From positions 1 to 40,760 of the forward strand of contig JAFRGW010000127.1 of NCBI GenBank assembly GCA_017433615.1: a stretch of DNA of 40,760 nt. Reading direction: 5' to 3'. Position numbers and translations under genes: made by a program. Origin of the DNA: Eubacterium sp. Its GTDB lineage: Bacteria > Bacillota > Clostridia > Lachnospirales > Lachnospiraceae. The notes below the pieces were generated by a model, which saw only the letters and a list, made by a program, of their open reading frames with translations, did no database searches and was not told where the DNA came from. Below, in pieces: positions 699-40,586 of this stretch (its first letter is position 1; each line of letters begins with the position of its first letter).

Positions 699-816
699 CG
701 TACATATATGTGAGAACCTGCAGAGCATAATAATTAAGCAGTACATAGCTTGCGTGGATTTTCCAGTATTAATTATTAGATGAGGTTATATACACATTTA
801 CAGTATGAGGCGTACC

Positions 817-14900: not shown

Positions 14901-17900
14901 GACATTCAGTCCGTGAATGATTATCTGAATGTGCAGGCAGAAGCCGGTGTATCGGATGTCACCCTTGATTATGTACAGCTTAACACGGAAAGTGAAGATC
15001 TGGTGATTCCGGAAGGAATGACGGTGACGATCAATCAGATTTATGTCGAAAGCAATTTCAGAAACCTGATTGTAGTGAATGGAACGCTGAAAATCAACAG
15101 CGGCGACGTTTATCTCGGTGTAAAAGAAAGCCTCTTCTCAAAGGGAGCGAATGGTTCGATTATCCTGACAGGATCAATCTGTGCGAATCCGCCGGAGAAG
15201 CTGGCAGATACATCGGACACCCCGATGATCACTGGTGTTGATTCGGATTCACGCATTTACGGCTGGTCAGACGAGAATGGTTACATTGAATATGTCTGGA
15301 GAAACGGTCTCTGGAAGCAGCAGAGATCAGATGGATATGCAGATCTTGAGGATATGATTGAACTGGTGCAGCAGGCGGATGGTTCTGTCAGCTGGAGTTC
15401 TGCAGAAATGGCGCCGGGAGAGGAAATCTGGTTCAAGTTTAAAGTAAATGAATCTGGATTGTACAAAGTAAACCGCAGCGGGATGAGTATATCAGAGATC
15501 CTGGTAGCCAGAGAAGATAACGATTACTCGCATGTAGATGGTTATTCTTCAAATGGCACTGTTTATTATCTGGCGGCAGGTGAGCAGATTGTACTTCGGA
15601 CTTATAAGTATGATGATGATGATGATGAAGGAGAAAACACCACAACCTGTGGGTTCTCTTTTACGAAAGAATCAGAACAGGGTATTACGGGTGAAACACT
15701 GGCGGCAGATCTGGATGTAGATAATATCAAGATTAATGCCGGAAATAGCACAGCAGAAAGCGTGTTTGTGCCGGTTGAAATCACGATTCCGCTGAAGGGC
15801 AGCGCAGGCGGTGTTGCAGATTTGTATAACAGCATCGGCGAGGGCGCTTATTTCAGTGTTCGCACCTGGCTGAACGGTGAGAATTATTCAACAACTATTT
15901 ATGGTTCATACAATGCGTCTTCCGGAAATCTGGAGTTGTCGCAAAATGTGGCGATTGCAGGACGTGAAGCAGATACGCTGCGCCTGAGCGAAATAGAAAT
16001 TGAAGTGGAAGGAAATAGCGGCTGGAGAACATATATGATTGAAAATCAGTCATCTTCCTCTGAGACAGATGTTCAGACGCACTCCACCAGATATGGCTAT
16101 GCCAATATTTCCAACGCTGTCGTATCGCTTCCGGCAGGACCGGAACTGACCATTGACAGCAAAACGGGCAAGTTTACTGCTTATACAAATATCAATGGTC
16201 TGTATTACAGTTTTACACCGGAAGAATCAGGCTATTATTATCTGGATACAGACTATCAGGATCTGGACTGGGAGTTTGACTTCTATGAGTGGCATGAGGA
16301 ATACTCTGGCTGGGAAGACTGCAGCCGGGATCTGACAGCAGGAAAAACATATCGTATATATTTTGGAGTCTGGGATGAGTCCGAAGATCATTCACGTCCG
16401 ACCGGAACACCAATCGATTTGAAACTGTCGGTGGATAATGCAGAAGTTGAACTGACTTCGGTTACACTGCCTGAGACAACTTACGAGAGCTGTGTCTTCG
16501 ATGCAGATGTCAAAGTATCTGTGAAGAATGGAGAGATTACTTACGGTTATCTGTATTTTGGAAAAGATCCATATGATGATGAGGGGTCCACATACTATAA
16601 TGATACTGATTCTGTCCGCCTGAAAGTGTTGGATGGAGGTACGCTCAAAGTTGACAGAGAAAGTATTTATACAGCTGGTGAATGGGAATTGTATGAGGTC
16701 GTTCTGTATGGCAGGGGCGGTAAAACCTTGCATTTCCGGGAACTGGATGGAATCGTCAATCATAAGACATTGACAGTCGGAACGTTGAAGGAACGTCTTG
16801 AATCAGCGAAGAGTGGAGATGTTCTGGATATTTCTTACCTGGGTGTAAATTCCGGGGAAACGGTTACGATTCAGGAAGGGGTCACGGTAAATTCAGATTA
16901 TGTCTTTGTGGACGGAGATGCTGAACTTCTGGTTTATGGAACGCTAAATGTCAATGACGAACTGGAAATCAATAATACCGTTGAAGTCGGAAACCAGGGC
17001 CGGATCAAGGCTGCCTGGGTGCATATGTTTGACGGTGGCATCAATTTCGCGGCTGGTGCATCCGCTCAGATAACGAATACCTTCAGCGGCTATGGAGCAG
17101 AAGATACTGCGAAATGGGAAGAATACCGCGCGAAGATTACCGGTGCAGATGGTGCAGAAATGTATCCGCGGTATTATGATAAAGAACCCGTCGAGGACGG
17201 ATACTACTATACATATGATACTTCACTGGTGTACAGATGGAACGGCAGTGCATGGGTACTGGCCGGCGGCGAGGAACCCGAACCTGATCCGGTCGAGAAA
17301 ACAGATATTTCCTCCATGGCGGCGGATTTTGCGCTGGCTGTGGAGGAAGTGACTTACACTGGTTCTGCACAGAAACCGGATGTCACATACAGCGGCACGA
17401 ATGGTCTGCTGGAAGGCAGAGACTATTCCGTGGCATATAAGAGCAACAAAGATGCCGGAACAGCGACAGTAACGATCACCGGTATTAATAGTTACACCGG
17501 CTCGATAACGAAGAACTTTACGATTAATAAGGCTGAGCGGCAGCTGATCCCGGAAAGTACGGCGATCCAGAAATCTCCAGATGCAGCAGCATTTACAATC
17601 GACTCCAATGCATGGGGAACCGTGACTTATACGAGTAAAGATACGAATGTTGCGGAAATCACGGCAGACGGCAAGATTCAGCCGAAGGCACATGGTGAGA
17701 CAACGATTACCATGACGGTCGCAGAAACCCCAAATTATAAAGCGGCGACAGCAGAAGTGACGCTGACGGTTCTGAAGAAGGCAAGTGTGCTGAAAGCACT
17801 GGATCTGGCATGGAATCTGGGCGCAGGAACGGCGGACAACAAGCTGGATATTTCGGGCAGATTCCGCTATAACGGAACGACGACGGATACAGCACCGGCT

Positions 17901-20402
17901 GACCTGGTTTATGCCAGCAGCGATGAGGCAGTAGTAACTGTGGATGAAAACGGCACAATCAAAGGTGTCGGAACCGGTACAGCTGAGATCAGCATCTATG
18001 CGGCGCAGACTGAAGATTATGATCAGTCGAACACGGTGAAAGTACCTGTCAATGTGAAAAAAGAAGTTGCAGAATACAGTGGCAGTAACTATATCAGCGT
18101 ATCTTCTGCGCTCGGACAGATACCGATAGATGAAACTGAAGGAACGATCAATCTTCTGGATGATACCGAGAAGTCTGAGATTTTGCATCTGCCGTCTGAC
18201 AAGGCAGTTATCGAGAAAGACAAGATCATTACACTGGATCTGAAAGGACACCACTACTACGGCAGCCTTAAGATTCAGGGCAAGCTGATCCTGAGAAATA
18301 CGATCGAGAAATCTGTTCTGCAGAAGGCAGCATCGCTGCTGAATTCGCTGTTTGGCATTGTGACTGTAAATGCAGAGGATGGCGACACAGGCGAATTTAC
18401 GCTGGATGGCGGAAGCATTGAGATTCAGAACTCTGTCACGGAAGAAGATCTGAGGGAAATCGATGTCAAAGGACATACCGCAAGTATCACAAGCACCGAC
18501 GCTGAAGCAGAGACAGTTACAACCTATTATGCGAAAGTAGAAGACGCGATCAGTGCGGCAAATACAATCGTAGAGGAAAGCGCGGTTGGCGGAGAAACAT
18601 CTGCAGAAGTAACGGTTACACTTACAAATCCGGCAGTTCTGACCGAGGGTGCAGAGATGAAATCCGGTGTCACCCTGGACCTTGCAGGCAATTCGCTTGG
18701 TACTGACGGAAGTGAAGGTGTGAAGCTGAGCGGAACAGAAGGATCAACCGTTATTTCAACTAAGGATGGAACTGAGACAGAAGCGGTTATTGCGGAAGAG
18801 GTATTAAGTTCTACTGCGGCGCCGCAAATTGAAGGGACAAAGATCCAGCAGATTAAGACAGAAGCCATTGAGATTCCTTATAAGGTGGAAGAAAACCAGA
18901 CATATCCATATGACGGGGAAGTTCCTTCACTTGAACTGACGGCCACAGAAAGTACGGAAGGATACAGAACAGTTCAAGTAGCGGGAGGAGAAAACGAAGT
19001 TGGTAAACATACATATGCTGTTGAAGTATATTACCAGAACGTTTACGTAAAAACGCTTAAAGGGACAGTCGAAATTCTTCCTAAGGTAATTGATGTGGGC
19101 GATGTTAAACTGGAAAATGACCATTTCTGCCCGGATGAAAAAGCACATAACCTTGTAGTAGAGTGGCCGGATGGTGAAATGCCCGATGGCCTTGTGGTAA
19201 GTTATACCAGCGAAAAAGCAGATGCGGGAACTTATCCGGTCAAGGCGATTATATCACTGCAGGATGATAAGAATTATCAGTTAAAACACAATGGCAATGT
19301 TGTCGATGATGTTGTCCTTGAAGCAGAGATGAGAATCAGCCACACACCAGGTGAGGAAACCAGCGAAGTAACGGAGAAAGCTACTTGTTATAAAGAAGGA
19401 AAGAAAGTCTTTAAAACGGTTTGCGAAGATTGTGGAGACGTTCTCAATAAAAGGGAAGTATCAATAGCAAAAACGGACCACACAAAGGCGGAAGAATCGG
19501 TTGCATTGAACAGGGTAGAACCTACCTGCAAGGAAAAAGGTCGCTATGAAGAGGTGTATTATTGTTCCGAGTGCGAGAAGCAGGGTACTAAGACGATCGT
19601 AGATTCAAAGGTGGTTGAAATTCCTGCCACCGGAGAACACACATACGATACTACTGGCAAAGTGACCAAAGAGCCGACATGCGTGAAGGAGGGTGTGAAG
19701 ACGTTCACATGCAAAGTCTGCGGAGACGAGAAGACTGAGCCCATCCCGGCCACCGGCAAACACACAGAGGTCAAGGACGCAGCGGTCGCAGCAACTACTT
19801 CGGCAGCTGGCAAGACAGCAGGTTCACATTGCTCCGTCTGCGGTCAGGTACTGACAGCACAGAAGTCTATTGCGAATATCGGTTCACTGACCCTGAGCAG
19901 CAAGTCATTTACCTACAATGGAAAGGCGCAGAAACCGCAAGTGACGGTGAAGGACGCAGCCGGTAAGGCGATTGCAGCATCCAGCTATACTGTAAAATAC
20001 AGTGCGGGCTGTACAAATGCAGGCTCCTACAAGGCAACTGTGACATTTAAGGGCAGCTATTCCGGAACGCTGAGTGGAACATTTACGATCGCAAAGGCAA
20101 AACCGACTGTGAAGGTCAAGACAGCTTCGAAGAAACTGAAACTGAAAAAAGTTAAGAAGAAAAAACAGACATTCGCGATTGGCGCATCTGTGACCGGAAA
20201 TGGAAAGCTGTCCTATAAGATCAGCAAATACAAAGGAAAGGCGAAGAAGTATATTAAGATTAACAAGAGCAACGGCAAGATTACAGTCAAGAAGGGAACG
20301 CCGAAAGGAACCTACACAGTGACTGTGCAGGTGACAGCAGCGGCAAGCACAAATTATAATGCAGCGACGCTGTCGAAGAACATTAAAGTTGTTGTGAAGT
20401 AA
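11961..20402 (+). CDS. Giant secreted modular surface protein with Ig-like and CxxC repeats
   Basis: A 2,813-residue exported protein. It has a signal peptide (residues 1-28, ending near ASIVFA), then an Ala/Glu/Ser-rich acidic stretch to about 135. A ~610-residue module starts near 266, repeats near 872, and appears truncated near 1496. Each unit has a beta domain, a ladder-like part with 'tltIpeGvtv' strands, and the first two end in a WxxF(R/K)(Y/F) domain. A YTGSAQKPDVTYSG Ig-like domain (~1790) and a BIG2-like domain (~1860-1945) follow. Cys-rich repeats (2474-2630) contain CEDCG, CSECE, CKVCG and CSVCG. A second Ig-like copy (FTYNGKAQKPQVTV, ~2645) and a Lys-rich tail close the protein. 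There is no LPxTG or membrane anchor, so it is secreted or held by charge. GGAGG lies 7 bp before the ATG. The function is unknown. Confidence 0.9.
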   Translation: MKNRIAAWLMTAVLAVTTVGADASIVFADNPDVAAESVVESAEEVSAASEASEEQTEAEPVLSAGEAGGSDSDAVQETGAAEAAQEETAVSPAAESETVSEDADSDDAAAASEAASASAGTDETVVETQTEQESSPAMNAEGVTMVSEINGESVYLLYTDDEEGQMIQANGNYYYYGFLPQETGYYTVYLSGGQITYGQFCMLDADGNSVSYEYTDGRTKYYDSFPGSLTCKLTEGNAVYFRIYCNSNNGSKSRVKIKKKTDPEEVTLQDVQIDTAAYAYGKDLAIRVKLNQSNYNAVEASIRDASNSTSCGNDNAYPQKADANGYYTLNWSDFNISGDIYLDSIRVYDQYGYYTNVTIPATYTDTALFSVSQLQNELNQLAENDGGTYTCSYYTVKEGETLTIPEGVTLDISNMYVSGTLSVKGKMIAYYLNMDKDAVYSDDGGTVVVRSEYSDYAGYNPATVGFTGYYNACYYDRTGSYSDVADLEWRHGKWREPLEKRNGIPEDDEIMVLDSYLEANGSFNTSGQSDEPNYDTHWFRYTPEKDTLITLTASIGDASWGNFDTYVKNESGLSCIIGRDYNAYDRQSYTLSLTAGKTFYFYIEANGSNVTYSFDAELQEGVLTASKVAAALDFANASYSVTDLNTGLRNRKITVTIPVNTENEAVLAVLDGSGGNQVELCFESQEGRNYWIYGELDTSRKNLVLSQECDVYSVASDEIQLVPRQIEYVKDNSWQYIYNSENENAAYLAGEAYTDFGDKIDPIKVTGCKVDADPMTLNSEIALTPGTTEVYAYTAVEKGSYTAYLTDAGACIDVTVIYGGENGGTSRYGNNDFPYSAAMDLDDGDTVYIVAQAYDNTEAAPALGLTADTGEIAVNSITLNETAAVAGQTVSMNVSCSGTKEDGKFRRAEAYFTSAAGYSFGISAEANRADQMLSQMTLTGSTSHAGSYKLNYITIYDYYGRNHTYYNGDIEGIDFADYFIDIQSVNDYLNVQAEAGVSDVTLDYVQLNTESEDLVIPEGMTVTINQIYVESNFRNLIVVNGTLKINSGDVYLGVKESLFSKGANGSIILTGSICANPPEKLADTSDTPMITGVDSDSRIYGWSDENGYIEYVWRNGLWKQQRSDGYADLEDMIELVQQADGSVSWSSAEMAPGEEIWFKFKVNESGLYKVNRSGMSISEILVAREDNDYSHVDGYSSNGTVYYLAAGEQIVLRTYKYDDDDDEGENTTTCGFSFTKESEQGITGETLAADLDVDNIKINAGNSTAESVFVPVEITIPLKGSAGGVADLYNSIGEGAYFSVRTWLNGENYSTTIYGSYNASSGNLELSQNVAIAGREADTLRLSEIEIEVEGNSGWRTYMIENQSSSSETDVQTHSTRYGYANISNAVVSLPAGPELTIDSKTGKFTAYTNINGLYYSFTPEESGYYYLDTDYQDLDWEFDFYEWHEEYSGWEDCSRDLTAGKTYRIYFGVWDESEDHSRPTGTPIDLKLSVDNAEVELTSVTLPETTYESCVFDADVKVSVKNGEITYGYLYFGKDPYDDEGSTYYNDTDSVRLKVLDGGTLKVDRESIYTAGEWELYEVVLYGRGGKTLHFRELDGIVNHKTLTVGTLKERLESAKSGDVLDISYLGVNSGETVTIQEGVTVNSDYVFVDGDAELLVYGTLNVNDELEINNTVEVGNQGRIKAAWVHMFDGGINFAAGASAQITNTFSGYGAEDTAKWEEYRAKITGADGAEMYPRYYDKEPVEDGYYYTYDTSLVYRWNGSAWVLAGGEEPEPDPVEKTDISSMAADFALAVEEVTYTGSAQKPDVTYSGTNGLLEGRDYSVAYKSNKDAGTATVTITGINSYTGSITKNFTINKAERQLIPESTAIQKSPDAAAFTIDSNAWGTVTYTSKDTNVAEITADGKIQPKAHGETTITMTVAETPNYKAATAEVTLTVLKKASVLKALDLAWNLGAGTADNKLDISGRFRYNGTTTDTAPADLVYASSDEAVVTVDENGTIKGVGTGTAEISIYAAQTEDYDQSNTVKVPVNVKKEVAEYSGSNYISVSSALGQIPIDETEGTINLLDDTEKSEILHLPSDKAVIEKDKIITLDLKGHHYYGSLKIQGKLILRNTIEKSVLQKAASLLNSLFGIVTVNAEDGDTGEFTLDGGSIEIQNSVTEEDLREIDVKGHTASITSTDAEAETVTTYYAKVEDAISAANTIVEESAVGGETSAEVTVTLTNPAVLTEGAEMKSGVTLDLAGNSLGTDGSEGVKLSGTEGSTVISTKDGTETEAVIAEEVLSSTAAPQIEGTKIQQIKTEAIEIPYKVEENQTYPYDGEVPSLELTATESTEGYRTVQVAGGENEVGKHTYAVEVYYQNVYVKTLKGTVEILPKVIDVGDVKLENDHFCPDEKAHNLVVEWPDGEMPDGLVVSYTSEKADAGTYPVKAIISLQDDKNYQLKHNGNVVDDVVLEAEMRISHTPGEETSEVTEKATCYKEGKKVFKTVCEDCGDVLNKREVSIAKTDHTKAEESVALNRVEPTCKEKGRYEEVYYCSECEKQGTKTIVDSKVVEIPATGEHTYDTTGKVTKEPTCVKEGVKTFTCKVCGDEKTEPIPATGKHTEVKDAAVAATTSAAGKTAGSHCSVCGQVLTAQKSIANIGSLTLSSKSFTYNGKAQKPQVTVKDAAGKAIAASSYTVKYSAGCTNAGSYKATVTFKGSYSGTLSGTFTIAKAKPTVKVKTASKKLKLKKVKKKKQTFAIGASVTGNGKLSYKISKYKGKAKKYIKINKSNGKITVKKGTPKGTYTVTVQVTAAASTNYNAATLSKNIKVVVK

Positions 20403-27304: not shown

Positions 27305-28537
27305 ATGAAAAAGCATGCACGGTTCCTTCTTCGGAATCATAAAAGACGAGTCAGTTTACTGCTGGCACTTTGCCTGACAATCGTGATGTTCTGCGGCGCC
27401 GTTCTTACATATGCCGCAGATGAATACAAGTACACCGTCCGGATCTTTGCCGGCGATAAGGGCACATTCAGTAGTTGTCCGGCAGGCGGAACAATTACGG
27501 ACGGCGGTAAGACGATCATTATTGACAATCTTGATCCGGGAACAATGCCTTCCTTCAATAATTCGATGGTATCTATTACAGATGATAAATACTATGTGAA
27601 GGGTATCCGCGAGGCCGGTAAGGACAACAGTACTGTCGGATCATCAGCACCGACGATTACAGAAGACATTGATTACGTTGTAGCTTATGGTATCAGAGGC
27701 AGTTCCGTACAATACACGGTAGAATATGTTAGCGTTGATGGAGAAGAACTTGCTGATACTGAGACATATTACGGAAATGTAGGTGATCGTCCGGTCGTAG
27801 CATATAAGTATGTCGAAGATTACTTCCCGAATGCTTATAACATTACCGGAACACTGAAGGCCGACGCTTCCCAGAATGTATTCAGATTTATCTATCAGCC
27901 GCTTACAACGGAAGCACCGGAACAGCCGGCACAGCAGAATACGCCTGAGCAGCAGACCGGAACAACGACGACTACTACGACGACTACTGGCGGCGCAGCA
28001 GCGACAGCCGGAACAGCCGGCGGAGCAGCGGCAGCCGGTGGAGCAGCGGCAGCTGGTGGAGCAGCCGGAGCTGCCGGAGCGGCCGGTGGAGCAGCAGCCG
28101 GGGCAGCTGGCGGAGCAGCTGGTGGAGCAGCGGCAGGAGCAGCTGGTGGAGCAGCGGCAGGAGCAGCCGGAGCAGAAGAAGGAAACCTTCCGGCAACTCC
28201 ACAGGCAGTACCAGAGGTGATTGATCAGGATGGTACTCCACTTGGTGAAAATTCTGGTGCAGCTTCCGATGGCAGCACAGCAGAATCCAGCAGCAGTGCA
28301 TCCTCTGCAGGAACAGAGCCGACAACAGAGACCATTAGTGAAGGTCAGACACCGCGTGCAGGTCTGTCCGGTGGTGCGATTGCAGGTATCGTGGTTGCGA
28401 TCGCAGCAGCAGCGGCAGCAGCACTGTTTGGCGGACGTTATGCACTCAATAAGAAGCGTGCAAATGACGCGGCATCTTCATCGGGTTCCGAAACATACAA
28501 GTTTGATGATGACGGAAATCTGAAGAAGAAAGACTAA
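27305..28537 (+). CDS. MucBP-domain surface protein with Gly/Ala tract and C-terminal membrane helix
   Basis: A 410-residue exported protein with a signal peptide (~15-38, GAVLTYAAD). Residues ~45-130 are a beta domain. Residues ~138-200 match a MucBP-type repeat (VQYTVEYVSVDGEELADTE; NVFRFIYQP), linked in other proteins to mucin binding. A Thr run and a 62-residue Gly/Ala tract (229-290) follow, then LPATP (295-299), a Ser-rich linker and a membrane helix (GGAIAGIVVAIAAAAAAALF) with a basic, charged cytoplasmic tail. LPATP is internal and not followed directly by a hydrophobic stretch, so it is probably not a sorting signal. The start directly follows the previous stop. It is likely a tip or base component of the fibre; the role is inferred. 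Confidence 0.86.
   Translation: MKKHARFLLRNHKRRVSLLLALCLTIVMFCGAVLTYAADEYKYTVRIFAGDKGTFSSCPAGGTITDGGKTIIIDNLDPGTMPSFNNSMVSITDDKYYVKGIREAGKDNSTVGSSAPTITEDIDYVVAYGIRGSSVQYTVEYVSVDGEELADTETYYGNVGDRPVVAYKYVEDYFPNAYNITGTLKADASQNVFRFIYQPLTTEAPEQPAQQNTPEQQTGTTTTTTTTTGGAAATAGTAGGAAAAGGAAAAGGAAGAAGAAGGAAAGAAGGAAGGAAAGAAGGAAAGAAGAEEGNLPATPQAVPEVIDQDGTPLGENSGAASDGSTAESSSSASSAGTEPTTETISEGQTPRAGLSGGAIAGIVVAIAAAAAAALFGGRYALNKKRANDAASSSGSETYKFDDDGNLKKKD
27989..28174 (+). repeat. In-frame Gly/Ala low-complexity repeat tract
   Basis: 62 codons almost entirely GGN/GCN, made of short repeats such as GGAGCAGCGGCAGGAGCAGC, all in multiples of three. Slippage would change the protein's linker length without breaking the frame. 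Confidence 0.9.
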
Positions 28538-29244: not shown

Positions 29245-29338
29245 CGTTTATAAACGCAAAACAGACAGGGGTGCACAGTTCGCGACAGGGAAGATCGCTT
29301 CGCGATCACGCTCGCGCGCAGAGCGTGCACAAGTGCAC
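29241..29338. repeat. Cluster of palindromes and small hairpins
   Basis: A perfect 20-bp palindrome, TTTGCGTTTATAAACGCAAA, spans 29241-29260. It is followed by GATCGC-TTC-GCGATC (29293-29307), ACGCTC-N7-GAGCGT (29308-29326) and GTGCAC-AA-GTGCAC (29325-29338). No convincing gene covers this 259-bp gap. The cluster could be an operator region or a repetitive extragenic palindrome. Confidence 0.75.
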
Positions 29339-29421
29339 GCTATCAAATTTGTCGCTTAAATTGTCAGTAAAAATGTTAATTTTTATGGCAGTAGTCAATA
29401 TGATTAGTATATAATAAAGCT

Positions 29422-30528
29422 ATGTGTAACAGAATTATCAACAATTACATATGTAAAAGGATATGCCTGATCCTGCTGACGGTTGCGCTCACACTTTCGC
29501 TGTTTGCATGCGGGAGCAGTCAGGAGGCCGATGCTGCGTCGGACAGCGCGGCGAATGCAATCTCATCCGCAGGCGCCGCGATTTCCTCTGCGGTCGATCC
29601 ACAGAAAGCGATTCTGGGATTCGGCAGCTCCAAATCAAAATCATCGGGATCGTCAGATTCATCGAAATCCCCTGCGGGCAAGACTTCAGCTGGTGCTGCA
29701 TCTGCGCCGGCAGAACCGGAAACAAAATATGAGATCCCGCCGTTCCGCGGTGTGGAATTTCATGAGGATGCGGCAGAAGGAAATGGATTTGTCTCGATTG
29801 ATTTGTCTTCCATCGAGAAAGGATATTTCGGCCTGCTCTGCAAGACGGATAAGCAGATGCTTTTCCAGGTGATCAAGGACGATACGACCTATAATTATGC
29901 TGTGATCAACGGCGAGGAGATGTTCTTCCCGCTTCAGCTGGGAGACGGACATTATACTTTCCGTGTGATGGAAAATATCGAAGGCAACAAATATCTGGAA
30001 TACTATAAGACCGAAGCAGATGTTTCAATTGCCGACCCATTGGACCCGTTTTTGCGGCCGAATACTTACTCGAATTATGCAGAGGACTCTGAATGTGTGA
30101 AGAAAGCGAAGAGTTTCGCGGAGAATTCTGCAGATGTCGAGGAATTCATTGAGCAGATTTACGACTATGTCTGTGACAACATTAAGTATGACAGGGAACT
30201 GGCCGAGAATGTCCAGTCGGGATACTTGCCGAATCCGGATAATACTATGGCAACGAAGAAAGGTATCTGCCTGGACTATGCCAGCCTTGCGGCCGCGATG
30301 CTTCGCAGCCAGGGTGTGCCGACAAAGATTATTTTCGGATATGTCGCGCCGAATGATGTGTACCACGCGTGGAATAAATTTTACACGGAGGAAGGCGGCT
30401 GGACACTGGTTGAATTCAAGGTTGTCGGAAAAGACTGGAACAGGATCGACCTGACATTTTCAGCCAACGGCGCCGACAGTGATTATATCGGTGACGGATC
30501 GAATTATTTAGAGGTTTACACGTATTGA
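29422..30528 (+). CDS. Transglutaminase-like lipoprotein
   Basis: A 368-residue lipoprotein. The hydrophobic signal ends LSLFAC, with C30 the lipidation site, followed by a long Ser/Ala-rich tether. The C-terminal domain is transglutaminase-like, with C283 (KKGICLDYAS), H315 (YHAWNKF) and D343 (RIDLTF) as the expected Cys-His-Asp triad. This fold often acts on peptides or makes crosslinks at the surface. The gene starts the second cluster and is followed by a 36-bp tandem repeat, then pilC. No ribosome binding site precedes the ATG, and TATAAT (29410-29415) lies only 6 bp upstream, so the mRNA could be leaderless. A weaker TTGTCA (29361) to TATGGC (29384) pair is an alternative promoter. Crosslinking of pilus components is speculative. 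Confidence 0.92.
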   Translation: MCNRIINNYICKRICLILLTVALTLSLFACGSSQEADAASDSAANAISSAGAAISSAVDPQKAILGFGSSKSKSSGSSDSSKSPAGKTSAGAASAPAEPETKYEIPPFRGVEFHEDAAEGNGFVSIDLSSIEKGYFGLLCKTDKQMLFQVIKDDTTYNYAVINGEEMFFPLQLGDGHYTFRVMENIEGNKYLEYYKTEADVSIADPLDPFLRPNTYSNYAEDSECVKKAKSFAENSADVEEFIEQIYDYVCDNIKYDRELAENVQSGYLPNPDNTMATKKGICLDYASLAAAMLRSQGVPTKIIFGYVAPNDVYHAWNKFYTEEGGWTLVEFKVVGKDWNRIDLTFSANGADSDYIGDGSNYLEVYTY

Positions 30529-30646
30529 GTGTGCCAGGGTGCGTTCTGTACAGGAATCAATCAGGTGTGCCAGGGTGCGTTCTGTACAGGAATCAATCAG
30601 GTGTGCCCGGCTGCGTTCTGTACAGGAATCAGTCAGGTGTGCCCGG
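30529..30646 (+). repeat. 36-bp tandem repeat directly after the lipoprotein stop codon
   Basis: Full copies lie at 30529-30564, 30565-30600 and 30601-30636, with a partial fourth from 30637. The first two are identical; the third has a few changes. Each contains the palindrome CTGTACAG. The array begins at the base after the TGA stop. There are no spacers, so it is not a CRISPR. Open frames across it are by-products of a period divisible by three. Confidence 0.95.
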
Positions 30647-30676
30647 AAGCTTAACTGGCAGAAAGAGAAAAATCAG

Positions 30677-30781
30677 ATGCGTACGGAATGGTCAGACGAC
30701 AGCAGAGGTGTGACTTTCCGGAAGCTCTCAGATAACGATAACAACGATAAGAAATATCAGCAGGAGAGGATGCGCGTATGA
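30677..30781 (+). CDS. Possible 34-residue ORF overlapping the pilC start
   Basis: From ATG 30677 the reading frame gives a charged, Asp/Asn-rich peptide (MRTEWSDDSRGVTF, then NDNNDKKYQQERMRV). Its stop overlaps the pilC start as ATGA, an arrangement typical of translational coupling. There is no good ribosome binding site before its own ATG, and pilC has a strong one (AGGAGAGG). It may be chance. I list it because of the overlap only. Confidence 0.25.
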   Translation: MRTEWSDDSRGVTFRKLSDNDNNDKKYQQERMRV

Positions 30782-31845
30782 GTGCAGACAAGAAAACAGG
30801 AAAAGCGGCGCTTGGCTATGCGGAGATGGGTTCCTTCTTCGAGAACATGGCGATGATGATCAAGGCCGGCATTACGGTAAATGAAGCTGTCGGTCTGCTG
30901 AAGGATGAGACAGACCGCGACAATCAGGTGATGATCAATACACTGACGAGTCTGAACGATCAGATGTCTGTTGGTGTCTCCTTTGGTGATGCCATGCGTG
31001 ATGCCGGAACATTTCCGGATTATGCAGTGGATATGGTCGGTGCGGCGGAATACACCGGACGGTTGGAGGATACATTGTTCCATCTGTCGGAATATTACCG
31101 GTCCGAGGAATCCATGCGTAAGACGCTGATTTCGGCCGTCCGCTACCCGATTATTCTGCTGGTCATGGTAATCGCGGTGCTGATCGTCATGCTGAAACTG
31201 GTATTCCCGGCATTTTATGGCGTGTACAACAACCTGACCGGCAGCCTGTCGGCATCGTCGTACCGCTATATTGACGTGTCATTTATGATCTGCCGGATCA
31301 TGCTGGTTGTCATGATCGTTCTGGTTGTGGTTCTGTTGATCGGTGTGCTGATGTGGCGCGGCGGAAAGCAGGATGCAATTCGCCGGATTCTGATGAAATT
31401 CCCGGCATTTGAACAGCTGATCAGCAATCTGGATCTGTACCGCTTCACATCCTGCTTCGATATGTTCATTTCCAGCGGCGAACTGCAGGACGAGGCATTG
31501 AAGAAGAGTCTGTCCGTCGTGGAGACCGGTGCATTGCGCGGCAAAATCGAGCGCTGCATTCAGAAGATGGAAGCGGAGGGCAAGAGCTTCTCGCAGACAG
31601 CATATGAAGAGCAGCTGTATGACGCCATCAACAACCGTATGCTGATTCCGGCAGAGCGAAGCGGTATGCTGGATTCCATCCTGCAGAAAATCATGCGCAA
31701 TCTGAAGGACAACAATGATGCATACATCAGCCGGATCGCAAATACGATCGAGCCGCTGCTGACAGGTATTCTGATGATTTTCATCGGGCTGATGCTGATC
31801 AGTCTGATGATTCCGCTGATCGGTATTATGAACAGTATCGGGTAA
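30778..31845 (+). CDS. pilC: Type IV pilus/type II secretion inner-membrane platform protein (PilC/GspF family)
   Basis: A 355-residue polytopic membrane protein with two GspF-type halves. The first has AGITVNEAVGLLKDE, the second SSGELQDEALKKSLSVVE, and both contain the typical helical cytoplasmic domain. Membrane segments lie near 120-145, 168-195 and 325-350. In type IV pili this platform couples the ATPases to pilin assembly. AGGAGAGG lies 7 bp before the ATG. It is followed by a diverged 37-bp repeat and then by a run of small pilin-like genes and a PilT-type ATPase. Family membership is clear; the gene symbol is by family only. Confidence 0.93.
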   Translation: MSADKKTGKAALGYAEMGSFFENMAMMIKAGITVNEAVGLLKDETDRDNQVMINTLTSLNDQMSVGVSFGDAMRDAGTFPDYAVDMVGAAEYTGRLEDTLFHLSEYYRSEESMRKTLISAVRYPIILLVMVIAVLIVMLKLVFPAFYGVYNNLTGSLSASSYRYIDVSFMICRIMLVVMIVLVVVLLIGVLMWRGGKQDAIRRILMKFPAFEQLISNLDLYRFTSCFDMFISSGELQDEALKKSLSVVETGALRGKIERCIQKMEAEGKSFSQTAYEEQLYDAINNRMLIPAERSGMLDSILQKIMRNLKDNNDAYISRIANTIEPLLTGILMIFIGLMLISLMIPLIGIMNSIG

Positions 31846-31847
31846 AA

Positions 31848-31958
31848 GTTTTTGACGTGTCATGCTGAGATGATCAGATGCAGCGTGCAGGACATGACAA
31901 CCTGCGATGCTTAGATATTATGTGCAGGACGTGACATGTTGAGTTTATCTGGTGAAGA
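31848..31958 (+). repeat. Diverged 37-bp tandem repeat after the pilC stop codon
   Basis: Three decayed units begin at 31848, 31885 and 31922, sharing the pattern GT....GACNTGNCA..(C/T)TG. The last two share GTGCAGGAC(A/G)TGACA. The array starts 2 bp after the TAA stop and runs toward the next start. It is weaker than the other arrays in this cluster. Confidence 0.6.
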
Positions 31959-31980
31959 AACTTACATAAGGAATATTTCC

Positions 31981-32298
31981 ATGAACAAGAAAGACCACTC
32001 CACAATCATTATCCTCGTCTGGGCGATTCTGGCTGCCGTTCTGCTGATCGGCGTTCCCATGTCGCGCAGCGCAGCTGCGGAAGGCGGGGAAGACAGCATC
32101 CAGTCCATCCGGGAAACCGTGATGGAGCGGGCGCTTCAGTGCTATGTCATTGAGGGTGCATATCCGCAGGATCTGGCGTATCTTGAGGAGAATTATGGTC
32201 TGACGGTTAACAAGGAAGATTATCTCGTCGTATATACACCGTTTGCGGAAAACTTGCCGCCGGATGTTCAGGTGATTGACCGGAACGAAGGCAGTTGA
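31981..32298 (+). CDS. Small membrane-anchored pseudopilin-like protein
   Basis: A 105-residue protein with a short basic start (MNKKDH), a membrane helix (TIIILVWAILAAVLLIGVP) and an extracytoplasmic domain with one Cys (ALQCYVIEGAYPQDLAYLEE). The AYPxDLxYLE pattern is like pseudopilin C-terminal domains, but there is no canonical prepilin cleavage site. AAGGAA lies 7 bp before ATG 31981. An in-frame ATG at 31936 with a weaker site would add 15 residues that lie partly within the 37-bp repeat, so 31981 is preferred. The last nine codons form the first unit of the 38-bp repeat. It sits between pilC and three similar small genes. Confidence 0.82.
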   Translation: MNKKDHSTIIILVWAILAAVLLIGVPMSRSAAAEGGEDSIQSIRETVMERALQCYVIEGAYPQDLAYLEENYGLTVNKEDYLVVYTPFAENLPPDVQVIDRNEGS

Positions 32299-32423
32299 CC
32301 CGGGTGGAAGTGATTGACCGGAGTGCAGGTAGTTGACCCGGGTGAAAGTGATTGACCGGAGCGAGGGCAATTGACCCGGGTGAAAGTGATTGACCGGAGT
32401 GAAGCTGTCTGACCGGGATGCAG
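32272..32423 (+). repeat. 38-bp tandem repeat (paired 19-bp units) spanning the stop codon
   Basis: Copies lie at 32272-32309, 32310-32347, 32348-32385 and 32386-32423, the last more diverged. Each consists of two related 19-bp halves, GTGATTGACCGGAGTGCAG and GTAGTTGACCCGGGTGAAA types. The first copy includes the last nine codons and the TGA of the upstream gene. The palindrome ACCCGGGT recurs in the first three units. Confidence 0.95.
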
Positions 32424-32487
32424 GGAATGGTATCAGCTGACAAATGAAATTCGTTGAAATGGAAGCACAGGACAGGGGATTTAAGTG

Positions 32488-32943
32488 ATGAGAAGAAACG
32501 GTGAAAAAATATTTGGCGACGTGATTTCCACAGTCACGGTTGCGGTCCTGTTCTTTGTGATCCTGATGCTGGTGGTGTTTTCGGCAGTATCTTATCAGCG
32601 GTCCGTTGAAATATCTGACGCAAACGGGAATGCACGTGCTGTGCTGTCCTACATCATTACGGCGGTTAAGGCCAGTGAGGCCAGCCGTGTAAGTATCGAG
32701 GATATGGACGGGATGCAGGTGCTTGTGATTGAAGATGCATCCACGGGATATGCTCAGGAGATTTTCCATAAGGATGGAAAGGTGCAGGAAAATTACGGCC
32801 GGATTGGCGAACCGGTAAATGTAGAGGATGCGCTGGTGATCGGCGAAGCGAATGTATTTGAATTTGACATGGCTGCCTACAATTTGCTGCAGGTGACTAC
32901 AGATCTGGGCAGTTCTTACGTACATCTGCACACGGCACAGTGA
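32488..32943 (+). CDS. Small pilin-like membrane protein (DUF4860-like)
   Basis: A 151-residue protein with a basic N-terminus (MRRNGEKIFGD), a membrane helix (VAVLFFVILMLVVFSAVSY) and an extracytoplasmic domain (ARAVLSYIITAVKASE; DMDGMQVLVIED). It resembles the DUF4860-type proteins I associate with Gram-positive type IV pilus operons; that match is from memory. GTG at 32485 directly precedes ATG 32488. AGGGG (32474-32478) suits either, and ATG is preferred. A minor pilin or assembly role is inferred from the position after pilC and before the PilT-type ATPase. Confidence 0.83.
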   Translation: MRRNGEKIFGDVISTVTVAVLFFVILMLVVFSAVSYQRSVEISDANGNARAVLSYIITAVKASEASRVSIEDMDGMQVLVIEDASTGYAQEIFHKDGKVQENYGRIGEPVNVEDALVIGEANVFEFDMAAYNLLQVTTDLGSSYVHLHTAQ

Positions 32944-32953
32944 GGACGAATAT

Positions 32954-33439
32954 ATGAAGAAGGAACGTAACATCGCATTTATCGTGGAGCTGCTTCTTCT
33001 TTTCATGATTTTGCTGTTCGTGATTGTAGTGATCACGCAGACATTCATGAAATCCAGGAGTCAGAGCCTGTATGCGCGGCATTTAACGGAAGCGGTCACA
33101 CTGGCCGAAGAAGTTGCAGAAGTCTCGGCATCGGCAGAAGATCTGACCGAGGCGGCAGAACGGTTTGGCGCCATGGAGCAGGTGCTGGAGGTTCAGGAGA
33201 CGCAGGGAGAATCAGGCGAGACTTCGGCTTCGGGTTCAGGCCTCGTGATGGCAATGGAATTTGCTGCAGAGAACGGAACACGGGATGAATACCGTGTCGA
33301 GCTGGACTGGGTGGAAGAAAAAGACAGAGCCGATGCAGCTGCCGGCGGCCGATTCGTTACAAAACAGATCCGGGTCTATTTCGCAGACGAACAGGAACCG
33401 ATCTACACACTGGATGCAGGAGATTTGAAAGCGTCTTAA
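32954..33439 (+). CDS. Small pilin-like membrane protein
   Basis: A 161-residue protein with the N-terminus MKKERN, a strong membrane helix (IAFIVELLLLFMILLFVIVVI), then an Ala/Glu-rich helical region (EAVTLAEEVAEVSASAEDLT), a Ser/Gly linker and a beta-rich end (YRVELDWVEEKD). The helix-then-globular layout is that of a minor pilin. Its ribosome binding site GAGGA overlaps the preceding stop, with 7 bp to the ATG, so translation is coupled. No named family is recognised. Confidence 0.85.
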   Translation: MKKERNIAFIVELLLLFMILLFVIVVITQTFMKSRSQSLYARHLTEAVTLAEEVAEVSASAEDLTEAAERFGAMEQVLEVQETQGESGETSASGSGLVMAMEFAAENGTRDEYRVELDWVEEKDRADAAAGGRFVTKQIRVYFADEQEPIYTLDAGDLKAS

Positions 33440-33461
33440 CGCATGAAATGGAGAAGCAGGT

Positions 33462-33878
33462 ATGAGTCACAAGATCAGACTTGGACCAATTGCAATATTT
33501 CTGACAGTCATCGCGGCTGTGCTGGCGACGCTGGCGATGCTGACTGTTGCGACCTCGCGTGCGGATGCCACGCTGGCGGAGCGATTTGCAATAGTTACAT
33601 CTTTGCGCTATGAGCTTGAGACGGACGGAAACCGTTTTCTGCAGCAAATAGACAGTAGCCTGCGGACCGACGGACTGCTTGAACTGCCGGAAGGCGCAGA
33701 ACAGCTTGACAATGGGAATGTGCATTACAACGTCGAGAAAGAGGGATATGCGCTTGATGTTGAGGTGGCTGTTCTGCCTGACGGATCAGATGCAGGTAAC
33801 TATGAAGTGGTTGACTGGAAAATCAGTAAGATCTGGAAGGGCGCAGATCCGTTCGAGAATCTCTGGCCGGGTTTCTGA
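33462..33878 (+). CDS. Small pilin-like membrane protein
   Basis: A 138-residue protein with the N-terminus MSHKIRLG, a membrane helix (PIAIFLTVIAAVLATLAMLTV), a helical segment (LAERFAIVTSLRYELETDGN) and a beta-rich end (YALDVEVAVLPDG). It is the fourth small protein of this type in a row, 22 bp after the previous gene. The hydrophobic N-terminus and short ectodomain suggest a pilin-like subunit, but no prepilin peptidase motif is clear. The function is inferred from context. Confidence 0.85.
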   Translation: MSHKIRLGPIAIFLTVIAAVLATLAMLTVATSRADATLAERFAIVTSLRYELETDGNRFLQQIDSSLRTDGLLELPEGAEQLDNGNVHYNVEKEGYALDVEVAVLPDGSDAGNYEVVDWKISKIWKGADPFENLWPGF

Positions 33879-34012
33879 GCCGGCAGTGAACCGGCAGCTG
33901 TCCGGATTGTATCTGGGCGCCGGAAGATCAAGGAAGCAGGAAATCGGCAGCCCCGGAAGCGAAAAAAGGGCGCCGAAAGGATAAGAAAGCAAGAAAAAGG
34001 AGCCAGACACAC

Positions 34013-35068
34013 ATGACATTGCACGAAATTCTGCATCGCGCCACGGAAAGCGGCGCCTCTGACATATTCCTGATTGCCGGCCTGCCGGTCACCTACAAGG
34101 TGAAGGGTGCGCAGCAGCGTGTCGGCGAGGGGATCATGAAGCCAAATGATATCATACCGCTGATTGACGAGATCTATGAGGCGGGACGGCGGGCGAAGAC
34201 CAATTACGAGAACGGGGTGGACGATGATTTTTCATTCTCGATTCCGCAGCTGGGAAGATTTCGCGTGAATGTATTCCGGCAGAGGGGTTCTGTGGCGGCG
34301 GTAATCCGTGTAATCAAGTTTGGCATTCCGGATCCGGCGCAGCTTGGCATCCCGGAGAGTGTTCTCTCGCTGGCGGATAACAAGACGGGTCTTGTTCTGG
34401 TGGCCGGTGCGGCGGGTTCCGGTAAATCCACGACACTTGCATGTATGATTGACCGGATCAACCAGCGCAGGGAGTGTCATGTGATCACCATGGAGGACCC
34501 GATCGAGTATTTGCACTCGCATAACAAGAGTATTGTCAGCCAGCGCGAAGTGTTTATCGACACGCCGGGATATCTGGAGTCGCTGCGCTCGGCACTGCGT
34601 GAGAGTCCGGATGTCATTCTGCTGGGTGAGATGCGCGATTACGACACGATTTCGTCTGCGATTACAGCTGCCGAGACAGGTGTGCTGCTTTTCAGTACCC
34701 TCCATACCAGCAGTGCGGCAAATACAATCAACCGCATCGTAGATGTATTTCCGGCAAATCAGCAGCTGCAGGTGCGCGGACAGCTGGCGCAGCTGATCCG
34801 CGGGGTGGTCTGCCAGCAGCTGATCACGACGACAGACGGCCATCTGCAGCCGGTATTTGAAATTCTGAAGACCAATCCGGCAATCCAGAACATGATCCGC
34901 GAGGGCAAGATGCACCAGCTTGATTCTGCGATGCAGGCCAATGCGGCGGAAGGCATGACAACGATGGACGGCAGTCTTTTCGAGTTGTGGCAGAAGGGGA
35001 TGATCACGAAGGAGACGGCACTGTCTGTCTGCAACAACTATGAATTTCTGAGTAAGCGTATCCGCTGA
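34013..35068 (+). CDS. pilT: PilT-family type IV pilus ATPase
   Basis: A 351-residue secretion ATPase. Walker A is GAAGSGKS (132-139), with the Asp box and Walker B region near ITMEDPIEY and DVILLGEMRD, and the His box TLHTSSAANTINRIVDVFP. The C-terminal AIQNMIREGK resembles the AIRNLIRE motif of retraction ATPases, so PilT is a better label than PilB. The length is normal for PilT. It is the only pilus ATPase in the window; no PilB, prepilin peptidase or PilM/N/O is visible. AAGGAG lies 10 bp before the ATG. The preceding 134-bp gap has weak, diverged internal repeats (GGGCGCCG at 33915 and 33968). Confidence 0.94.
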   Translation: MTLHEILHRATESGASDIFLIAGLPVTYKVKGAQQRVGEGIMKPNDIIPLIDEIYEAGRRAKTNYENGVDDDFSFSIPQLGRFRVNVFRQRGSVAAVIRVIKFGIPDPAQLGIPESVLSLADNKTGLVLVAGAAGSGKSTTLACMIDRINQRRECHVITMEDPIEYLHSHNKSIVSQREVFIDTPGYLESLRSALRESPDVILLGEMRDYDTISSAITAAETGVLLFSTLHTSSAANTINRIVDVFPANQQLQVRGQLAQLIRGVVCQQLITTTDGHLQPVFEILKTNPAIQNMIREGKMHQLDSAMQANAAEGMTTMDGSLFELWQKGMITKETALSVCNNYEFLSKRIR

Positions 35069-35148
35069 CGGATCAGGAATATGATCCGAATATGCATCTG
35101 CTGACGCTGACGGATCAGGAAATTGACGCGGATGCGCATCCGCTGACG
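35065..35148 (+). repeat. 42-bp tandem repeat at the pilT stop codon
   Basis: Copies lie at 35065-35106 and 35107-35148, both beginning CTGACGGATCAGGAA and ending CTGACG. The first TGA is the pilT stop. Unit 1 contains CGGATCA-N6-TGATCCG. Unit 2 contains the perfect 16-bp palindrome GCGGATGCGCATCCGC (35128-35143). Confidence 0.9.
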
Positions 35149-35257
35149 CTACACCAGGCATTTACGTATCTTTTCTTATAAGCAGCACCAGGAAATCTGC
35201 AGCGCGGTCCCGATACAGGCAGCATATTTCCGGAAAAGAAACGGCAGGATTATATTT

Positions 35258-36625
35258 ATGAAAAAAAGACACATCAAAAGTTCCTTCCTCTACATTGCAT
35301 TTACATTGCTTGTCGCTGTGTTTGGAACGATGACGCTGGTCAGTCTGAATCATCTGCACAGCGGCCTCGGCTCGATGCAGGCAACGACAGAGGAGTATAT
35401 TGAGTCGCAGCAGGCGGTGAGCAGTATGCGGGAGGCGTCTGACTTTCTGACGATGCAGTCGCGGGAGTATGTTGTCAACGGCGATCCGGTGAACCTGCGG
35501 GCGTATCTGGAGGAAATCAACGAGACAAAGCGCCGCGACAATGCCCTGGAGGTTCTGGCAAAGTACCAGCCGGAGGGAACGGCGTATCAGCAGCTGATGA
35601 CGGCAGTCGAAAGCTCCAATGCGCTGGCGGAAGTCGAGATGTATGCGATGCGTATGACGTCGGAAGGCTATGAGATGTCAGAGACGGAACTGGAGAATTA
35701 TTTCCCGGACACGGTACTCACGGATGAGGACCGTGCGCTGTCTCTGGAAGAGAAGAAAGCAAAAGCCATCAGCATGATGTTTGATGAGAACTATACGGAG
35801 ATGAAGCATGTCATCATGAACAATTCCTACAGCAGTCTGGAGGAATTGATCGGCATGACGCGTGACAGGCAGGTTACCAGTTACGAGGAGACAACGCGGC
35901 AGGTTACGCGTGTGGTCCGGGTCACGATTATGATTCTGCTGGTGGCACTGGCGATGCTGATTATCAATACGCTTCTGGTTCTTACGCCGATGACCCGGAG
36001 TGTTTCCTACATCCGGAAGCATGAGCCGCTGCCGCTGAAGGGCGTCGCGGAGTATGTGTATCTTGCGGATGCCTATAACCAAATGCTTGAGCGGACAGTC
36101 GAGCATCAGGAGAAGCTCTCCTACGAGGCCTCTCACGACGAGCTGACGGATCTGTACAACCGGAAAATGTTCGAGGAAATGCGGCTGGAGCTGGTGGATA
36201 AAGGAATCGCCATGCTGCTGATCGATGTGGACTATTTTAAGAGCATCAATGATACCTACGGCCATGGAATCGGTGATGAAGTGCTGAAAAATGTAGCAGC
36301 GATTCTGGCACACAGCTTCCGTATGGAGGACTATGTCAGCCGGATCGGCGGCGATGAATTTGCCGTGATTATGCGGCATATGGACAGCAGTCTCAAACAT
36401 GTTGTGGAGGCCAAGATTCAGCATGTGCGTGAGACGCTGGCGGAGACGGAAGGACTGCCGCCGGTCACACTCAGTATCGGTGTTGCATTTTCCGAAAAGG
36501 GAAACCGCGAGGATGTCTATCAGAAGGCAGATCTCGCACTTTACGATGTAAAAGACCGGGGCCGGAACGGTTATGCGTTCTATGAGTCCTGGATGCTCGA
36601 GAAGAAGACTGCCGGGAAGGCCTGA
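35258..36625 (+). CDS. Membrane diguanylate cyclase (sensor plus GGDEF)
   Basis: A 455-residue enzyme predicted to make c-di-GMP from two GTP. A membrane helix (~8-29) and a second (~220-245) flank an extracytoplasmic helical sensor. A short linker precedes a GGDEF domain with an intact active site, RIGGDEF (362-368), and an intact inhibitory I-site, RMED (355-358), five residues before it, so product inhibition is expected. AGG precedes the ATG by 9 bp. It lies directly downstream of the PilT-type ATPase gene and upstream of a c-di-GMP phosphodiesterase, so it probably sets local c-di-GMP for pilus or surface control. Its stop codon lies at the start of a 37-bp tandem repeat. Confidence 0.94.
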   Translation: MKKRHIKSSFLYIAFTLLVAVFGTMTLVSLNHLHSGLGSMQATTEEYIESQQAVSSMREASDFLTMQSREYVVNGDPVNLRAYLEEINETKRRDNALEVLAKYQPEGTAYQQLMTAVESSNALAEVEMYAMRMTSEGYEMSETELENYFPDTVLTDEDRALSLEEKKAKAISMMFDENYTEMKHVIMNNSYSSLEELIGMTRDRQVTSYEETTRQVTRVVRVTIMILLVALAMLIINTLLVLTPMTRSVSYIRKHEPLPLKGVAEYVYLADAYNQMLERTVEHQEKLSYEASHDELTDLYNRKMFEEMRLELVDKGIAMLLIDVDYFKSINDTYGHGIGDEVLKNVAAILAHSFRMEDYVSRIGGDEFAVIMRHMDSSLKHVVEAKIQHVRETLAETEGLPPVTLSIGVAFSEKGNREDVYQKADLALYDVKDRGRNGYAFYESWMLEKKTAGKA

Positions 36626-36768
36626 GAGAGAGGTCGGAAGAGGCCGCAAAGGCCAGACCTGAGAGAGAGGTCGGAAGAGGCCGCAAAGGCCAGACCTGAG
36701 AGAGCGGTCGGAAGAAGTCGCAAAGGCCAGGGCTGAGAGAGCGGTCGGAAGAAGCCGCAGAAGCCTGA
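36621..36768 (+). repeat. 37-bp tandem repeat at the diguanylate cyclase stop codon
   Basis: Copies lie at 36621-36657, 36658-36694, 36695-36731 and 36732-36768. The first two are identical and the later ones diverge gradually. The first copy contains the TGA stop of the upstream gene. Units can fold: AGGTC pairs with GACCT, enclosing GGCC-GCAAA-GGCC. Confidence 0.95.
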
Positions 36769-40443: not shown

Positions 40444-40586
40444 AATGTATATCTCATTGGAAGATGCCCCCGTCTCTATAGGCGGCGGGCAACAAACCAG
40501 TCTCAGTGGCGGGACTTGAATTGCTTCGTGCGGCAGCACCGGCAGAGAAAGAATGAATGCGCGTAAAAAACAGGGAGGAGTACAGC
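40444..40586 (+). other. Possibly structured leader of the glycine-rich gene
   Basis: Downstream of the extended -10 lies a GC-rich hairpin: GCCCCCGTC pairs with GGCGGCGGGC (one bulged C) around TCTATA, at about 40467-40492. A short GTCTC-N6-GGGAC stem follows near 40500-40515. The ribosome binding site GGGAGGAG precedes the ATG at 40587. No known RNA family is recognised. Confidence 0.35.

Follow-up and report, generated by a model that had tools for sequence, protein, structure and literature searches.

Tandem repeats at the gene ends of a type IV pilus-like cluster look like ordinary minisatellite-type duplications that selection tolerates at stops and excludes from starts

Repeats lying between bacterial genes have been described in several forms. 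Dispersed palindromes of the REP/BIME type are intergenic and often follow stop codons. Bacterial intergenic minisatellites/VNTR, which arise by replication slippage, are built of head-to-tail units of tens of base pairs, are lineage-specific and vary in copy number. In one published account (PMC12548453), MIRU are presented as short, apparently mobile repetitive sequences which insert at start codons and bring a coupled open reading frame. The five tandem arrays considered here share all the listed features of minisatellites, but several of their units consist of the coding 3′ end and the stop codon of the preceding gene, and the asymmetry between stops and starts counted below goes beyond that comparison. 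Like MIRU, they sit at gene junctions within operons, and the ATGA of the pilC start closes an open frame that runs through the first array; unlike MIRU, each array has its own local unit, the array consensus units differ, and starts are avoided (1/51). They also differ from REP/BIME sequences, as their units are singly not hairpins beyond chance and are not the same from array to array. No description of bacterial tandem repeats overlapping stop codons was found among the titles and abstract openings searched, which included few subscription papers and are thus weak evidence of absence. We consider it probable (about 0.8) that the arrays are independent, minisatellite-like tandem duplications of slippage type, seen through a selective filter. 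The arrays are real and look ordinary in origin; they appear to add further cases of tandem duplication between genes and not to form a new element.

The window, that is, the whole stretch of DNA analysed, is one entire contig of 40,760 bp from a 173-contig draft genome totalling 2.97 Mb and related to Lachnospiraceae; its fragmentation and contamination figures suggest a metagenome-assembled genome (MAG). In a PilT search across 41 genomes, the closest matches came from RGIG4369 (99%), a MAG called Eubacterium sp., and FE2018 (96%), a Lachnospiraceae bacterium. Coding nucleotide identity between the window and RGIG4369 is 88.9–95.3% for the six genes measured. The type IV pilus-like cluster (all features on the + strand) encodes a transglutaminase-like protein (“lip”, an ORF at 29422..30528; PF01841, 81.4 bits), a T2SSF, PilC-like protein (30778..31845; PF00482, 114.2 bits), four small proteins, a T2SSE, PilT-like ATPase (34013..35068; PF00437, 131.7 bits), a GGDEF protein (35258..36625; PF00990) and a receiver-GGDEF-EAL protein. 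“Lipoprotein” is only an earlier label, and so is “pilin-like”, since the second alone of the four small proteins has a Pfam match (DUF4860). The GGDEF protein measures 455 aa in the window, 465 aa in RGIG4369 and 458 aa in FE2018. MutS and MutL are both present above curated cut-offs, so loss of either gene was ruled out as the cause of the arrays.

Array 1 (30529..30643; 36 bp × 3.2 by Tandem Repeats Finder, TRF) starts at the base following the TGA of lip, which ends at 30528. Array 2 (31846..31945) is a decayed repeat of period 37 bp and about 2.5 copies that starts some 7 nt past the pilC stop. Array 3 (32272..32423) comprises eight 19-bp half-units, reported by TRF as 38 bp × 3.5 over 32272–32404, and the stop of the first pilin-like gene, pilin1 (32296–32298), falls within its first 38-bp unit. 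Array 4 (35057..35150; TRF 42 bp × 2.1 over 35063–35150) lies at the pilT stop (35066–35068), and array 5 (36621..36768; TRF 37 bp × 3.8 over 36621–36759) at the stop of the GGDEF gene (36623–36625). These are the five arrays that a first-pass annotation had reported; it was also right that in three of them the first unit contains the stop codon. Four were recovered by TRF, which missed array 2; self-comparison detected the latter with 39/63 matches (0.62) at an offset of 37 bp, where the 99th percentile of the best offset in mononucleotide shuffles was 0.47 and 0/2000 shuffles reached the observed value. Units within an array match at 82–96% (TRF) and are not identical, and we agree, judging by eye, that they are unrelated from array to array, with no sequence seen to be common to the arrays. 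One site had been overlooked, an 11-bp unit present twice (33876..33897) and containing the stop of the gene at 33462..33878. Five of eight successive gene ends in the cluster thus carry arrays, and a sixth carries an 11-bp duplication.

Comparison with close relatives, which had been proposed as a check, indicates that the arrays are lineage-specific. The gap between lip and pilC measures 249 nt in the window, 66 nt in RGIG4369 and 41 nt in FE2018; in the same order, the gaps are 135, 17 and 25 nt after pilC, 189, 81 and 21 nt after pilin1, 189, 145 and 158 nt between pilT and the GGDEF gene, and 203, 45 and 74 nt after the latter. The pilT–GGDEF gap of FE2018 is near that of the window in size, yet its sequence is different. 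The arrays are absent from the orthologous junctions of both relatives, except for a short decayed repeat of about 20 bp at pilin1 of RGIG4369, which was read from the alignment and is not reported as an array by TRF. In this species-level comparison, copy number therefore varies between close relatives. The first-pass annotation had seen one process acting repeatedly on the same kind of site. Tandem duplication, repeated and independent, stands as such a process, given that the arrays are specific to a lineage, with empty or single-copy sites in the relatives; a preference for stop codons does not emerge from the scan presented below.

The relatives also reveal where several of the units come from. 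In array 3, GTGATTGACCG is coding in all three genomes (window, RGIG4369 and FE2018), and the unit begins with GTGATTGACCGG, the first eleven bases of which code V-I-D-R in all three. The pilin-like gene's coding end forms the first unit, and the gene's stop, in the window as in RGIG4369, is a TGA that the out-of-frame copies supply in shifted phase. The repeated unit at pilT terminates in GCGCATCCGCTGACG, a near copy of the conserved coding end GCGTATCCGCTGACG plus the TGA stop. At the 11-bp site, TGAGCCGGCAG is single in RGIG4369 and double, with one change, in the window. The last unit of the GGDEF array gives a gapped and weaker alignment to the end of the orthologous coding sequence in RGIG4369, whose protein is 10 residues longer, and an ungapped comparison of the unit with the window's own coding end is poor (11/37). 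In the lip and pilC arrays the coding end is not part of the unit: the opening bases of the lip unit resemble a post-stop sequence present once in RGIG4369 (GTATGCCCGGATG), and no source of the pilC array was recognised at the RGIG4369 and FE2018 junctions. A local single-copy origin is accordingly seen for pilin1, pilT, the 11-bp case and, in part, lip, and is weak for GGDEF. Midway along the pilT–GGDEF gap, off the stop, 34 bp that the window has once are duplicated in RGIG4369, and therefore duplications in the cluster are not limited to stops. The lip gene of UBA3645 carries its own, different 34-bp array across the stop.

Seven further stop-overlapping arrays were found in the sample of the window's own genome, and six of them (all except L105) were compared with RGIG4369 and FE2018. 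One clear coding-end copy is present in some relative for five of the six. L064 and L071 have a single clear copy in each relative. The other three are single in FE2018, with about two copies in RGIG4369 for L020, a different insertion at the RGIG4369 site for L112, and 2.8 copies in RGIG4369 (L077) and 3.8 in the own genome for L098. For L006, no single-copy ancestor was seen in these two genomes, the gene tail of FE2018 being different and the RGIG4369 match stopping short of the gene. In L064 the stop is lost in a later copy (TAA to CAA), as expected when the first copy alone is under selection.

A repeat scan, the test by which the first-pass annotation had said its claim could be refuted, covered 1,702,628 bp with 1,370 called genes in parts of three genomes (59 stretches of the own genome including the window, 31 of RGIG4369 and 31 of FE2018). 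The stretches were picked by contig number or length, not randomly, and those of RGIG4369 and FE2018 include the pilus loci. Instead of a standard gene finder, a simple custom script that gave ORFs a Markov score was used to call genes; it found none in six stretches, each below 3 kb, among the first 20 from the own genome. Arrays had a period of at least 18 and a TRF score of at least 60, thresholds which work against two-copy arrays with short units. Among 74 non-coding arrays, 51 lie between co-directional genes, 8 between convergent and 6 between divergent genes; a further 8 lie at the edge of a stretch or contig and 1 within a called gene, and only the 51 entered the co-directional test. 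Its null takes the gap minus the extra copies and lets a unit of length p lie at any point between the position p bases ahead of the stop and the next start. Overlap with the downstream start was found once in 51 arrays against 15.0 expected, and 0/20000 simulations were as low; none of the 6 divergent arrays overlaps a start, and 4 of the 8 convergent ones overlap a stop. Inside genes, the period is divisible by three in 89 of 90 arrays, while the 21 stop-overlapping arrays (18 co-directional, 3 convergent) have periods of remainder 0, 1 and 2 in 7, 9 and 5 cases.

These observations can be combined in a simple scheme. Duplications, mostly of about 20–45 bp, would arise anywhere in the genome, presumably by slippage-type copying, and would last only at sites where selection lets them stand. 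A period divisible by three would let them survive within a gene; across a stop codon any period would do, because the first copy retains the original coding end and stop and the protein stays intact; across a start codon they would be nearly absent. Where an out-of-frame duplication starts within the coding end, a phase-shifted second copy may provide the new stop, and for that reason the array would sit on the stop. Such a copy supplies the stop of pilin1 and probably that of the GGDEF gene. Copies behind the stop would be free to multiply and decay. The scheme takes its empty and single-copy sites, the coding origin of several units, the frame rule and the stop/start counts directly from the data, and the arrays are most likely neutral or nearly neutral minisatellites.

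What this duplication-plus-filter model does not explain well is the crowding of arrays in the cluster. The three genomes have 4.3 non-coding arrays per 100 kb (74 in 1.70 Mb), against 1.6 per 100 kb in eleven further genomes from their genus (two genomes, 25 kb, with no array), family and order (6 arrays in 385 kb; binomial P = 0.005). This is a modest excess, given the small 385-kb sample and the window's own contribution of five of the 74. Within the window, four TRF arrays fall across 9 consecutive genes; among 264 overlapping 9-gene windows of the own-genome sample, four contain at least 3 arrays, all of them in the window, where a Poisson model expects 0.11 per genome. The locus was picked for its crowding, which may therefore be the tail of chance; other possibilities are that gap length is less constrained at this locus, or that spacing was selected.

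Selection for spacing would mean that longer gaps, which uncouple translation or stabilise or terminate mRNA, were favoured in the operon. We regard this as unlikely, although the low expected crowding, the lip–pilC gap (249 nt, against 66 nt in RGIG4369) and the fact that translational coupling concerns closely spaced neighbours, as stated in the account of MIRU cited above (PMC12548453), are in its favour. Against it, the relatives manage without arrays, the arrays share no sequence visible by eye, and single units show no fold beyond chance. One unit per array (four TRF consensus units and one pilC unit) gave z values against shuffles of +0.62, +0.62, −0.42, −0.15 and −0.42, so the palindromic or foldable core described earlier does not exceed chance, and a structured RNA unit was rejected. 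Whole arrays gave −1.02, −2.38 (pilC), −2.46 (pilin1), −1.13 and −1.71, and the entire pilC array folds as one long imperfect hairpin; of all the folding results, those for the whole pilC and pilin1 arrays come closest to supporting a fold and favour selected spacers, but mildly, as whole-array shuffles destroy the repetition and are not a fair control. Eleven terminator-like sites (a GC-rich hairpin followed by a T run) occur in the region and none lies within an array, so that intrinsic terminators were also rejected as the identity of the arrays. Promoter-like sites number 9 against 9.4 in shuffles, two of them touching the pilC array. These folding and pattern scans thus yielded no evidence for the suggested roles in RNA stability or insulation, or for termination. 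A MIRU-like coupled ORF was rejected as well: in the window, the frame running through array 1 into the ATGA of the pilC start stays open over 89 codons, but its counterparts reach 28 codons in RGIG4369 and only 5 in FE2018, so the feature is not conserved. Separate dispersed hairpin-forming elements, distinct from the array units, are present in these genomes.

Very improbable, in our view, is a dedicated process, be it a mobile element, a recombinase or a conflict between replication and transcription, which adds tandem units at stop codons. The run of neighbouring gene ends in the cluster with units of similar length speaks for it, but the geometry of the scan does not. The upstream stop is overlapped by 18 of the 51 co-directional arrays against 15.0 ± 2.7 expected (P = 0.17), by 15 of 46 against 13.4 when the window is left out (P = 0.33), and by 15 of 39 against 12.2 in an earlier, smaller version (P = 0.16) that was later enlarged with FE2018 stretches. 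An array edge lies within 7 nt of the stop in 7 of 51 cases, where 7.3 are expected; four of the five edges in the window do so (within about 7 nt), tighter than the spread of the sample. Array starts relative to the stop, expressed as a fraction of the unit, are consistent with a uniform distribution (KS P = 0.24, 17 of 18 arrays, one being dropped as longer than its unit), and 13 of 32 arrays touching neither codon are nearer to the stop. Co-directional gaps are short (median 77 nt), and therefore a 37-bp unit often touches a stop. Units that copy local sequence in several cases, and non-coding periods that extend from 18, the lower limit of the scan, to more than 160 bp, likewise argue against a dedicated process. 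The anchoring at stops claimed at first thus does not exceed geometry in this three-genome sample, and strong stop-codon targeting was rejected, although a weak preference is possible given the sample size. Rather than being visibly attracted to stops, the repeats are excluded from starts and from reading frames.

An artefact of short-read assembly is hardly credible: the draft has 173 contigs and 53-bp arrays at contig ends (L003, L006), so that arrays do disturb assembly and the copy number of an array in the draft could be wrong, but units within an array differ, similar arrays occur in two other assemblies, including FE2018, whose title bears no MAG label, and one array is common to two species (L098 and L077).

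Independent duplication under a selective filter thus remains our preferred reading, and it provides a simple rule for a pattern that resembles targeting: duplications across stops, unlike those across starts, are hidden from selection on the protein. A geometric null is needed whenever repeats are sought that seem “anchored” at stops. It is conceivable, though we think it unlikely, that the three species have a raised birth rate of 20–45-bp duplications which keep extending and rewriting the 3′ ends of genes, with a new stop made by an out-of-frame duplication and the remainder turning into a spacer that grows, and that spacers of the pilus operon have been retained for the changes in coupling they cause. 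Such duplications also illustrate one route by which closely related species come to differ in their C-termini and in the gaps of their operons.

Besides the short tandem arrays, whose units are mostly ~20-45 bp, long arrays with periods of 86, 106 and 172 bp occur in three of the scanned DNA stretches, namely L093 (8589-9319 and 16554-16854), L094 (11138-11318) and L085 (8183-8669, from the relative FE2018). These long arrays are of another kind than the short ones, and palindromes of the GCATCCGCA/TGCGGATGC type are common to those of L093 and L094. Arrays with a period of 53 bp lie at the extreme ends of contigs (L003, 21-269; L006, 1-176), which suggests that this assembly breaks at longer arrays and undercounts them.

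Repeats are also found within coding sequence. The gene at 27305..28537 of the window carries GGAGCAGCCG-rich coding repeats at 27965-28175, and comparable coding repeats, differing in length, are present in the two nearest relatives, RGIG4369 and FE2018. A coding repeat in L019 (17233-17260, 12 bp x2.3) has the unit GTGATTGACCGG; the unit of the array at the end of the first pilin-like gene (window 32272..32423) opens with these 12 bases too, an identity that may be due to chance. Upstream of the pilus genes, the window holds two very long ORFs, at 805-10341 (3178 aa) and 11961-20402 (2813 aa).

Upstream of the transglutaminase-like gene lies a palindromic stretch (window 29291-29341) containing GATCGCTTCGCGATC and GCGTGCACAAGTGCACGC, with one related copy (L102 10019-10069, 84%). 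A GC-rich dispersed element of ~50 bp was found at L006 18666-18716, L003 10849-10898 and L109 2060-2110, with shorter matches in L016, L099, L102 and the window (40467-40489); it is repeated in RGIG4369 and FE2018 as well. Distinct from it is another dispersed element, up to ~54 bp long and able to form hairpins (L064 6974-7027). Within the own-genome sample, similar copies (77-86% alike) occupy nine other places, in L073, L003 (twice), L016, L096, L095, L019, L105 and L106, and L063 holds a 19-bp match. Many copies exist in both relatives too, and this element appears to be REP-like.
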